A DNA stretch of 34,272 nt, taken from positions 1-34,272 of the forward strand of contig JAACDG010000011.1 of assembly GCA_009937025.1 (NCBI GenBank), given 5' to 3'. Numbering within the stretch: position 1 is the first letter of the stretch; every line of letters begins with the position of its first letter. The translations under genes were made by a program, and so were the position numbers. This DNA is from Methanobacteriota archaeon (GTDB taxonomy: Archaea > Thermoplasmatota > Poseidoniia > Poseidoniales > Poseidoniaceae). Below the pieces are notes generated by a model, which did not search any database, was not told the DNA's origin, and saw only the letters and a list, made by a program, of their open reading frames with translations. Below, piece after piece: positions 7,061 through 10,341 of the stretch.

Positions 7061-7143
7061 GCCCTGTCGTCAGCGAAGAGGTATGAGAACCCTATGTCTA
7101 CCTCCTTCGAGATGTTTCTGTGCGCAACGCCTATGCTGTGTCC

Positions 7144-7980
7144 ATGAAACGGAGAGGTGGGGATGACATGAGGCGGGCCGATGCTACGACGCTGGAATAT
7201 GTGACTGCAAGCAGCCACAACACGCGACACATCACCTTGATTGACCCAGCAAAGCAAGACCCGAACACGGCTGCAAATAGGGCAATGGTTGCTATTGAAT
7301 GTGGCAGCAGCATGATCTTTGTTGGCGGCTCCACAGACACTCCCGACGAAGTCGTCCATGCCACATGCAAAGCCATTCAAGAGGCCTTTGAATTACGAGC
7401 CTTTGCTTCAAGCCAAGACCCAGAGTCCGATGAATCACAATGGCAAATACCCGTTGTTCTGTTCCCTCGAGGGGGGCATGCTCTTTCTCCAGCGGCCGAC
7501 GCAATCACATTCATGATGCTGATGAATTCTACCATTCGGAGATTTTTGGTCGGTGAACAAATCCGCGGCGCACCTTATCTGGAAAAATTTGGTGTCGAAG
7601 CCCTACCTACAGGATACTTGGTGTGCGCCCCAGGTGGCAAGGTTGGGGAAGTTGGAGAGGTTGAACTGATACAACCCAGTGAGGTGGATTTAGTTCATGC
7701 ATATGCGCTTACAGCACGGATGTTCGGATTCAAACTCCTCTACCTTGAAGCAGGCAGTGGCGCAGAGACCCAAGTTCATCCGGACTTGATTGAAAGCGCT
7801 CGCTCTGTAGGCGACCTCACACTTGTTGTTGGAGGCGGCATCCGTACGCCAGAGCAGGCAAAACTCGCTGCAGAGGCCGGTGCAGATTGGATTGTGACTG
7901 GAACGCTTACAGAAGACGCAGCAGATTTACAAGAACTACGCCAACGAATCAGCGAGATTACCTCGGCATTAGAAGACTAA
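7144..7980 (+). CDS. Geranylgeranylglyceryl phosphate synthase family protein
   Basis: HITLIDPAKQ, FVGGSTDTPDEV, VVLFPRGG, YLEAGSGA, VVGGGIRTPEQAKLAAEAGADWIVTGTLTE: TIM-barrel GGGPS/PcrB pattern. Start uncertain (GTG 7120, ATG 7144 or ATG 7168). Confidence 0.9.
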   Translation: MKRRGGDDMRRADATTLEYVTASSHNTRHITLIDPAKQDPNTAANRAMVAIECGSSMIFVGGSTDTPDEVVHATCKAIQEAFELRAFASSQDPESDESQWQIPVVLFPRGGHALSPAADAITFMMLMNSTIRRFLVGEQIRGAPYLEKFGVEALPTGYLVCAPGGKVGEVGEVELIQPSEVDLVHAYALTARMFGFKLLYLEAGSGAETQVHPDLIESARSVGDLTLVVGGGIRTPEQAKLAAEAGADWIVTGTLTEDAADLQELRQRISEITSALED

Positions 7981-9242
7981 TCTTCATCTTCAAAGACAAC
8001 AGGGTCTCCAGAACCACCAGGTGATGGGGGCCGAACACCGTCGACATCAATTCCGGATTCGATTTCACTCTCACTCACTTCTAGATTGACGCGTCCACCT
8101 TCTGCGAGTTTTGACATATCCTCGGTGTCGGGCGTTGAAAGCGTTCTTTTAACATCAGGAGCATTACTGTAAGCATCTCTCTTCGCTTCACGAGCATCAT
8201 GGGTTCGAACCAATGAAAGGGAGTCAGCAAAGACACGACCTACAACTTCACGGGTTCGCTCACCGCGTCGAACAGAATCAAGTTCATGCACCATCGTTTC
8301 CCGCTGCCCTTCAATCTCTCGGAGTTCTGCAGTTCTGTCTTGTAATGCAGCCTCCATATCGGTAAGGGTGAGAGTGATTTGTTGAATACGTTCATCGCGT
8401 TCAAACACATCATTATGCAAACGTCGTTCTCGTCGTCGTAGAGAATCGTATTCCCTGTTTCGTTCAAGCAACCGTCGCTTGAGCTCATCGATTTGCTCAA
8501 CCAAATAATCGTGTTCTGCTGAAACAGAACGGGGACCTTGCATCACTCGCTCCAATTGTTCTTCCAATTCCCCGAGTCGACCGTCTCTTGCATCGAGAAG
8601 CCCGCGTAATCTGTCTGCGATATCTCGAAGTCTTTGACGCTCTTCTTCAAGTGCCTTATTTGCGGCTTGTTCCGCATCATTTTGAGCAAGTAAAGTGTCG
8701 AGTTGTGCTTTCAAACTTCGAACTTCTTCCGCAGTAACGGATGTTAAACCTGCATCAGCTGCACGTTCGAGCGCTTCGACCATCTGACTGATTCGACCTT
8801 CCATTTCTCCAATGACTTCGTCTTGCTGACTTGTCAAAGACCGCAATTCTCCAACTTCAGTTGCCATTGATTCACGTTCTTCATGTGAAAGAGAGGATTG
8901 CTGTGAAGCCAATTCTTCTCGCGTGTCGCCCAAAAGACGCTCAAGGTGAATCACTTTTGCTTCACTGTCTTGCAGGGCTGCATCGGTTTCAGCAAGACGG
9001 GCAACTTCTGGAGCCACCATATCTTCTCGTTCCGCCAAATCGAGTTCGAGCACCCGGAGGCGCTGTTTGACAGAAACCATTTCTTCATTTCGAGCAGCCA
9101 ACTCTTTCCATGCGATGAGAACTTCTTCGACTAATTGCTCTACAGGGTAGCCTTTGAGCATCCCCTCAAGCGCTGCTCGCTCATCGCCAGTCGCGTCACC
9201 AATTCGGTTGATACCAGTTGTTCCGGAAGAGTCGAGCGTCAT
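7977..9242 (-). CDS. Long coiled-coil protein of unknown function with acidic C-terminal tail
   Basis: 421 aa; roughly residues 55-330 are rich in heptad-like E/L/R/Q repeats (e.g. EMEGRISQMVEALERAADAG, LRRRERRLHNDVFERDERIQQITLTLTDMEAAL). C-terminus ends GSGDPVVFEDED. Confidence 0.85.
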   Translation of the reverse strand: MTLDSSGTTGINRIGDATGDERAALEGMLKGYPVEQLVEEVLIAWKELAARNEEMVSVKQRLRVLELDLAEREDMVAPEVARLAETDAALQDSEAKVIHLERLLGDTREELASQQSSLSHEERESMATEVGELRSLTSQQDEVIGEMEGRISQMVEALERAADAGLTSVTAEEVRSLKAQLDTLLAQNDAEQAANKALEEERQRLRDIADRLRGLLDARDGRLGELEEQLERVMQGPRSVSAEHDYLVEQIDELKRRLLERNREYDSLRRRERRLHNDVFERDERIQQITLTLTDMEAALQDRTAELREIEGQRETMVHELDSVRRGERTREVVGRVFADSLSLVRTHDAREAKRDAYSNAPDVKRTLSTPDTEDMSKLAEGGRVNLEVSESEIESGIDVDGVRPPSPGGSGDPVVFEDED

Positions 9243-9245
9243 ACA

Positions 9246-9261
9246 GGCGGCTATCGCCGCC
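9246..9261. repeat. Short inverted repeat GGCGGC-TATC-GCCGCC just upstream of the coiled-coil gene start
   Basis: 6-bp perfect GC arms with 4-nt loop, 4-19 nt from the ATG at 9242 (minus strand). Confidence 0.45.
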
Positions 9262-9336
9262 CAACTACACTTGAACTTTCGCCATCAAAAGAGGGCTTTG
9301 AGGGTCGGTTTTCCACCCTTTGCAGAAGCGCCGCAA

Positions 9337-10341
9337 TCAGTTGATTGCAGTAAACATGTCATCTGGCATTTCACCAGCGAGTTGGAGGGCGCCTGTAGCA
9401 ACAGCGTTGATTGGATCATCGACACACCAAACATTGACGTCCCCAATATCGGAAATTTCGTCAGCCATACGAGCTGCGACACCTTCAATCAAAGAGCCGC
9501 CGCCAGAGAGGATGATGTTGTTTCGAAGAATTGGTTGGTATTCAGGGTCTGCGCCAGCAACAATTCTCTTGATTGCATTTCCGATTTTCGGGATAATCAA
9601 TTCACATGCTTGGTTGACCAAGTCGCCGATATCGACAACTTGCTTCTTTCCTTCAACGGACAATTCAACCATTGCTTCACGGTCATCGCCGCCAACATAG
9701 GAGACTTCTTCTTTCCACTTGCGAACCATGTCCTTCGTGACTTGTGCGCCGGTGTACTTCTTTCGAATAAGTTCCATGAGTTCGTTGTCCAACCAATCTC
9801 CAGCCTCTTGGATAGTGACTTGGTCTTCATCAGTAGGGAATGTACCATAGATTCGAGCGATATCAGTTGTTCCAGCGCCAATATCAACGACAATTGAACT
9901 TGCAATTTCACCAATACCAAAAGCAGTAGCAAAAGGTTCTGTAACGACCATGATGGCGTTTACTTGACCACGAAGGGTTGCGACGAGGTTGGATTTGTCA
10001 GTGAATGAAACGTGGCTTGGAGAACAGATAACGCCAAACACTTCATCGAATTCTTCAGGGTCAACTGTTTCCAAAAGGTGAGAAACGAAAGCCTTGGCAG
10101 CTGCCAAATTTGCTTCATCATCTTGTGCAACACCAGCAGCCATGGGGCGGTAGAGATTACATGCGAGTTTATTCTTGAGAGCATCGCCTCCAAACAATAC
10201 ATCTCTTCCAAGGAAATTTCGTGCAACAGGGTCCTTTGGACGCCCGACGACAGTTTCGATTGTGTGGCTAATGCCAGCACTTGATGCAATAGTAGATTGG
10301 TAGGTACCCAGGTCAATTCCAACATATAGACGGTCACTCAT
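9337..10341 (-). CDS. Actin-like ATPase, MamK/MreB-like
   Basis: Phosphate-1 motif VGIDLGTYQSTIA, VVTEPFATAFG, phosphate-2 motif IVVDIGAGTTDIA, adenosine motif ILSGGGSLIEG. MamK-like stretches: VVGRPKDP..LGRDVLFGGDA, GTFPTDEDQVTIQEAGDWLDNEL, PEYQPILRNNIILSGGG, GALQLAGEMP. ATG at 10341. Confidence 0.88.
   Translation of the reverse strand: MSDRLYVGIDLGTYQSTIASSAGISHTIETVVGRPKDPVARNFLGRDVLFGGDALKNKLACNLYRPMAAGVAQDDEANLAAAKAFVSHLLETVDPEEFDEVFGVICSPSHVSFTDKSNLVATLRGQVNAIMVVTEPFATAFGIGEIASSIVVDIGAGTTDIARIYGTFPTDEDQVTIQEAGDWLDNELMELIRKKYTGAQVTKDMVRKWKEEVSYVGGDDREAMVELSVEGKKQVVDIGDLVNQACELIIPKIGNAIKRIVAGADPEYQPILRNNIILSGGGSLIEGVAARMADEISDIGDVNVWCVDDPINAVATGALQLAGEMPDDMFTAIN

Follow-up and report, generated by a model that had tools for sequence, protein, structure and literature searches.

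The window analysed here comprises 34,272 nucleotides of contig JAACDG010000011.1, from a genome of the archaeal order Poseidoniales (1.88 Mb, 83% complete). On its reverse strand lies a gene for an actin-fold ATPase, which we call actin A, followed after 94 bp by a gene for a long coiled-coil protein of 421 amino acids (Table 1). A first-pass annotation of the sequence had described the two as an actin-fold ATPase directly upstream of a possible partner on the same strand, and both open reading frames (ORFs) lie where it placed them. The actin A ORF runs from an ATG at 10341 to a stop codon at 9337-9339 and begins MSDRLYVGIDLG; a possible TTG start 54 bases upstream of the ATG would add an 18-amino-acid extension at most. 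The coiled-coil gene runs from an ATG at 9242 to a stop codon at 7977-7979. All motifs that the annotation quoted were recovered, with VGIDLGTYQSTIA, IVVDIGAGTTDIA and ILSGGGSLIEG in the actin A translation and VFEDED in the 421-amino-acid protein. We describe this pair, together with a second actin (actin B) and its neighbour encoded elsewhere in the genome, as a candidate cytoskeletal system of Poseidoniales.

Table 1 Features of the window, numbered from its first nucleotide.
Feature	Position	Strand	Evidence
Actin A, MamK-superfamily actin-fold ATPase, 334 amino acids	9337..10341	-	ORF translation, NCBIfam, PDB, tree
Long coiled-coil protein, 421 amino acids, candidate adaptor or bundler of actin A	7977..9242	-	ORF, coiled-coil score, AlphaFold2, adjacency to actin A
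N-terminal block, residues 25-77, common to the short homologue of actin-less genomes	9012..9170	-	Alignment and conservation
C-terminal extension, residues 162-421, only in actin-bearing genomes	7980..8759	-	Family f2: 22 long with actin versus 9 short without
Most conserved block of the extension, residues 230-296, GPRSVSAEHDYL...RRRERRLHNDVFERDER	8355..8555	-	Conservation, highest model confidence, weak bacterial-motif match
Conserved block ERTREVVGRVFADSLSLVR, residues 329-347, rod end, alternative docking candidate	8202..8258	-	Kept by almost all long homologues
Secreted subtilase (S8) with one C-terminal membrane helix	10455..13640	-	Pfam Peptidase_S8 E 5e-22, gene order, tail sequences
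Geranylgeranylglyceryl phosphate (GGGP) synthase, convergent with the coiled-coil gene	7120..7980	+	Pfam PcrB E 6e-41, gene order

Actin A has MamK as its best family and its best structure match. The top NCBIfam model is MamK (NF040964; 335.5 bits, E 3.1e-100), followed by BeeR (210.9 bits), MreB (86), salactin (30), ParM (20.9) and HscA (19). In Pfam, MreB_Mbl scores 91 bits (cut-off 27) and the Actin model is likewise above its cut-off. The closest solved structures are those of MamK (5jyg and 5ljv, E 8e-63), aligned over the full length, followed by BeeR (1e-38) and MreB (~1e-13), and a profile built from eight archaeal sequences left this ranking unchanged. The phosphate-1, phosphate-2 and adenosine motifs of the actin superfamily are present over the full length, and the matches to MamK, BeeR, MreB and actin in the PDB support the actin fold. 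E135 and D153 are conserved and align with MamK E143 and D161, which we take from MamK mutants to be catalytic.

Several other assignments were tried and rejected: Hsp70 (Pfam HSP70, 14.9 versus a cut-off of 20.6), ParM (20.9 bits versus 417), MreB (86 bits versus an NCBIfam cut-off of 293, with no mreC or mreD in the neighbourhood), salactin (PF25229, 23.6 versus 27.1 bits; NF053533, 30 versus 400 bits) and BeeR (NF053558, 210.9 versus 530 bits, the 30-50 amino acid disordered N-terminal extension being absent). Family scores, structure matches and trees all keep actin A apart from Hsp70 and ParM, the groupings that the first-pass annotation had set against its own reading. The kinship with MamK that it proposed holds insofar as MamK is the top family, far above MreB, but neither actin reaches the curated MamK cut-off of 400 bits (335.5 and 339.5 bits for actin A, 359.8 and 358.8 for actin B). 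Judged by their sequences, the Poseidoniales proteins are best classed as MamK-superfamily actins that are homologous to MamK without being a magnetosome MamK; the name MamK is unfit for them because they fail both the curated cut-off and the clade test described below.

No Pfam family matched the 421-amino-acid coiled-coil protein. In the AlphaFold2 prediction (mean pLDDT 76), the chain is helical from residue 19 to residue 359 and ends in a disordered tail (residues 360-421) whose acidic character agrees with the acidic C-terminus noted previously. The same annotation had called the protein mostly predicted coiled coil; by a COILS-type score with a self-written matrix, 191 of the 421 residues are coiled coil against a mean of 26 for shuffles. 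'Mostly helical rod' is the exact description, with coiled coil over about half of the protein by the strict score. Actin-less relatives encode a short homologue of ~160 amino acids that ends near residue 161 and lacks the C-terminal 260 residues. Among 32 long homologues, the strongest conservation falls within the added extension, at residues 230-296 and 329-347, and these blocks are the places to seek a contact with the actin.

The gene order of the pair, which the annotation had proposed to check in related genomes, is kept in essentially all carriers of both families of Poseidoniales. Spacing is constant wherever both genes could be read, including relatives whose coiled-coil proteins are only ~50% identical. 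The carrier locus reads, in order, FtsY and prefoldin alpha, a small L20a-like protein and then, on the opposite strand, the subtilase, actin A and the long coiled-coil gene, which runs towards the GGGP synthase gene. In all carriers the gene immediately upstream of actin A, and on its strand, is that of the subtilase, which overlaps actin A in two genomes (G044, G058); the C-terminal membrane helix of the subtilase is followed by a cytosolic tail that is short and acidic. Relatives without actin have the GGGP synthase and short coiled-coil genes, and the subtilase and actin are absent from the site. Since the GGGP synthase still stands beside the short coiled-coil gene (155-164 amino acids; L056:9125-9592, L057:9892-10386, L059:7449-7943), the short form marks the homologous site.

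An actin match was found in 176 of 293 Poseidoniales genomes. Only four genomes of the window's own family (f1) lack one, all of them 71-78% complete; in the other family (f2), real carriers are confined to four genera (g5, g7, g9, g22). We surveyed the coiled-coil protein in 58 genomes, mostly of f2. Within f2, the long form occurs with actin in 22 of 22 genomes and the short form without actin in nine of nine (genera g3, g4, g6 and g10; p 5e-8), a value that overstates independence since species share ancestry, although the switch at genus level is still four versus four. A seeming exception, G210, was rejected: its coiled-coil fragment sits at a contig end, so that the absent actin is an assembly gap.

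A second actin with a partner of its own lay outside the view of the first-pass annotation. Actin B is encoded on another contig of the same genome (C136, 18787-19782) and is 47% identical to actin A; besides these two, we found no actin-family filament protein in this genome, only DnaK. The salactin score of actin B is above the Pfam cut-off (PF25229, 61.9 versus 27.1) and below that of NCBIfam (NF053533, 69.9 versus 400). In essentially all carriers that were read, and throughout a 40-genome set, the gene immediately upstream of actin B encodes a protein of ~340 amino acids that has zinc ribbons close to both termini and an uncharacterised middle region. For this zinc-ribbon protein AlphaFold2 gave a mean pLDDT of 70, with no meaningful PDB match and a faint TerB-like signal. 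A few genes from actin B, and beside an amino-acid-kinase-family protein, a NUDIX (IPP isomerase-like) domain is encoded fused to a polyprenyl synthetase (L044:3597-5429); actin A likewise has a lipid gene nearby, that of the GGGP synthase. Actin B is split in two in the single-contig genome G060 (L082:10445-11456; model positions 1-152 and 154-335), which reflects either a sequencing error or a real break.

The four genes, actin A with the long coiled-coil gene and actin B with the zinc-ribbon gene, are present or absent together across Poseidoniales. Of the 32 f2 carriers, 29 were found to encode the zinc-ribbon protein, as against none of 24 other genomes (p 7e-13, subject to the same shared ancestry), and one genome of a carrier genus (G039, genus g5, 91% complete) lacks the whole set at once. 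The simpler reading appears to be that the genes descend vertically from an ancestor of all Poseidoniales and were lost together in lineages of f2; the coiled-coil extension would have either arrived or disappeared along with the actin.

Outside Poseidoniales, a survey of the phylum yielded one more MamK-like actin, in a metagenome-assembled genome (MAG) labelled 'Thermoplasmata archaeon' (SG225.bin14). It scores 435.7 bits, above the NCBIfam MamK cut-off of 400, and is followed by a 618-amino-acid coiled-coil protein, near archaeal RNA polymerase and Kae1 genes (L080:10127-13278, JAEHCK010000014.1). A scan of GTDB genomes returned at least 491 relatives, of which 80 were kept for a tree; they come from Planctomycetota, Nitrospirota, Desulfobulbia, Acidobacteriota, Gammaproteobacteria, Omnitrophota and others. 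Actins A and B form deep branches outside all 80, the magnetotactic clade included, and since the 80 were chosen by similarity to the SG225.bin14 protein, A or B may have closer relatives among bacteria. Known magnetotactic bacteria form one nested clade in this tree, and bacterial MamK-like actins are found mostly outside them; the kinship seen by the first-pass annotation is real, and its reading is incomplete in that the family is widespread in non-magnetotactic bacteria. The best tree does not unite A and B in one clade, yet their union is not rejected (p_AU 0.108), and a duplication within Poseidoniales is therefore possible. A search of viral contigs gave no relative of the Poseidoniales actins, and a plasmid or phage origin was rejected on weak PHROG matches. 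MreB-like matches in two genomes (G442, G283) proved to be ordinary MreB. In the second of these, a Poseidoniales MAG, MreB is followed by MreC/MreD/PBP2/RodA-like genes (contig C29, L086), which most likely marks a bacterial contaminant contig.

Compared with characterised systems, the Poseidoniales actins share with MamK the top model and structure match over the full length and the ATP-site residues, and MamK likewise works with partner proteins. They differ in being only 34-38% identical to AMB-1 MamK, below the curated cut-off and outside the bacterial MamK clade, with no magnetosome genes seen nearby. BeeR of Verrucomicrobiota (8r2n; PMC11929497) and Bbp of giant bacteria, the latter compared through its published description (PMC10580974), are also MamK-related actins of hosts without magnetosomes; actin A falls short of the BeeR model (211 versus 530), lacks its N-terminal extension and has different partners. 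Salactin and volactin of Haloarchaea (PMC10746226, PMC10869688) are euryarchaeal actins on the MreB/MamK side of the superfamily. Actin A is under the Pfam salactin cut-off and actin B over it, yet actin B scores 359.8 bits with MamK. Crenactin, an archaeal actin with clustered partner genes, the arcadins, one of them SMC-like (arcadin-4; PMC5173319), belongs to another actin branch, and no arcadins were found at the Poseidoniales loci.

Genes directly upstream of the bacterial MamK-like actins (L091-L168) encode unrelated proteins with a common terminal motif, h[FY]xxNLxh, always close to one protein end (for example ILKGVFEDNLRIIG, an amidase N-terminal peptide, LMADLFKANLKLQK and ALLQAIVNENRALRD). 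They include membrane-anchored amidases (Amidase_3) whose genes overlap the actin gene, coiled-coil, PAS-containing and other proteins in Planctomycetota, and proteins of 145-180 amino acids in Omnitrophota and the magnetotactic clade, the motif occurring in the latter as well. A strict pattern, devised after some of the sequences had been read, hits 37 of 63 upstream neighbours, as against 0 of 42 neighbours on the downstream side and 10 of 494 ORFs elsewhere. When a score matrix was trained on these strict matches, and thus on part of the same set, it picked out 54 of 63, 3 of 42 and 24 of 494, the last including several further genes of the same operons; owing to that training, the strict pattern is the cleaner test. 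With the motif masked, the upstream proteins form 12 unrelated clusters, and it occurs in 28 of 30 amidase-type proteins, in all members of three other multi-member clusters (13, 8 and 4 proteins), as well as one singleton.

By analogy, the bacterial motif fits a docking helix and is a candidate general docking peptide: helices of ParR and arcadin-2 bind a hydrophobic groove of their actins, and arcadin-2 depolymerises crenactin through its C-terminal peptide (PMC5173319). Its presence in the archaeal proteins was not accepted, the matches being weak and not significant in rank. Coiled-coil homologues in G044 and G058 score 9.4-9.8, and the best Poseidoniales match, RLHREVFERDERIQQ (G044), lies inside the conserved block with a score that is not exceptional; such matches can serve as a lead only. 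In Nitrospirota, Desulfobulbia and Acidobacteriota (L091-L126 and similar loci), the actin gene overlaps the end of a gene for a membrane-anchored N-acetylmuramoyl-L-alanine amidase, which suggests a cell-wall role in those bacteria. The Nitrospirota loci continue with a protein that has a receiver-like start and a SPOR-like end.

We think it probable that the four Poseidoniales genes encode a two-actin cytoskeletal system, in which the coiled-coil protein is a dedicated adaptor or bundler for actin A. Actin A would be an ATP-binding, filament-forming member of the MamK superfamily. Its partner would be a long helical rod whose conserved C-terminal half binds the filaments of actin A; the rod would either bundle them or tie them to another structure via its older N-terminal part, the region common to the short homologue. 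Actin B and the zinc-ribbon protein encoded directly upstream of it would form the second half of the system, and as all four genes are inherited and lost together, A and B filaments would act in one process. From the protein families, gene order, co-occurrence and long/short switch that we observe, and from the predicted rod, we infer polymerisation, binding, bundling and a cellular role; by default, the process is most likely cell architecture, meaning shape or the placing of a structure or membrane complex. The first-pass idea of a filament and its partner is strengthened by the long/short switch, which, together with the constant adjacency, is best explained if actin A and the coiled-coil protein are physical partners. 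The SG225.bin14 actin, likewise followed by a coiled-coil gene, also favours the account, and there is a precedent in Desulfovibrio magneticus, where MamK and Mad28 act together with coiled-coil Mad proteins (PMC12748827).

Several points weigh against this account. The N-terminal part of the coiled-coil protein occurs without any actin in many relatives, and the protein may therefore have an older, actin-independent job. Co-inheritance could reflect a common lifestyle instead of physical contact, and a bundler looks the same as an adaptor at the level of sequence. The bacterial partner motif scores only 6.5 in the window's coiled-coil protein (rank ~26 of 293 ORFs).

A broader version of the two-actin account is tentative: the two filaments would form a previously undescribed actin cytoskeleton, built from a deep-branching archaeal lineage of the MamK superfamily, in which every actin has a dedicated partner that docks by a short helical motif of the kind common to the amidases, coiled-coil, PAS and other proteins beside bacterial MamK-like actins. 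If this were true, MamK-type actins would be general adaptor-docking filaments, and magnetosome alignment would be one late use of them.

The main rival to cell architecture is cargo positioning, in which the filaments would position an organelle-like cargo as MamK does for magnetosomes and the coiled-coil protein would tether filament to cargo. MamK is indeed the nearest characterised family, and the long disordered acidic tail of the coiled-coil protein recalls MamJ, which is also acidic. Two actins with coiled-coil proteins further resemble the MamK/Mad28/Mad20-26 set of Desulfovibrio magneticus RS-1, in which MamK and Mad28 organise magnetosome chains with coiled-coil Mad proteins as one system (PMC12748827). 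In contrast to that set, the genes described here belong to an archaeon, lack a magnetosome context and include one coiled-coil and one zinc-ribbon partner with no shown homology to Mad proteins. No magnetosome-type genes were seen among the neighbours of either actin; a magnetochrome domain search of 15 carriers gave no match, but its control gave no match anywhere either, so that this negative carries no weight. As no organelle is known in Poseidoniales and the actins fall outside the clade holding magnetosome MamK, we regard cargo positioning as unlikely.

It is more doubtful still that the adjacency is incidental, an actin having been inserted beside an older, unrelated coiled-coil gene. 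The short homologue at the same site without actin in several genera is what this would predict, but the long form is restricted to actin-bearing genomes, its conserved blocks lie in the added half, and both families show the same gene order and spacing. Such an actin is paired with a coiled-coil gene in another archaeal lineage too (SG225.bin14). Equally improbable is a role as an archaellum accessory, with filaments that place or brace the motility machinery. Most carriers have archaellin genes, and actins and archaellins are both typical of Marine Group IIa (PMC6336850), but the two distributions separate both ways: genomes of g7 and g22 (G044, G058, G091, G142, G096) have actins and no archaellin match, G039 and genus g4 have archaellin matches and no actin, and neither actin locus is near the archaellum operon, so that a strict link was rejected. 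Least probable is a DNA segregation pair of the ParM-ParR type, in which the DNA adaptor would be the coiled-coil or the zinc-ribbon protein, since a PHROG 'partition protein' match (7.7e-7) and the two zinc ribbons of the actin B partner stand against a ParM score of only 21 bits, a chromosomal setting with fixed synteny and housekeeping surroundings, and a coiled-coil protein without a DNA-binding domain match in Pfam or NCBIfam.

Poseidoniales (Marine Group II) are uncultured archaea that rank with the most abundant in the surface ocean, and in the openly accessible literature that we searched there is no report of a cytoskeleton or of MamK-like actins in this order. Two co-inherited actins and their two partners are concrete proteins to express and image, and the relatives that lack the set and keep only the short coiled-coil form provide a natural experiment. 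For the family at large, the bacterial motif offers a testable docking peptide, and our broader survey suggests that actins of the MamK type are general filaments whose partners are modular and carry a motif, a view that would alter how magnetosome MamK is read.

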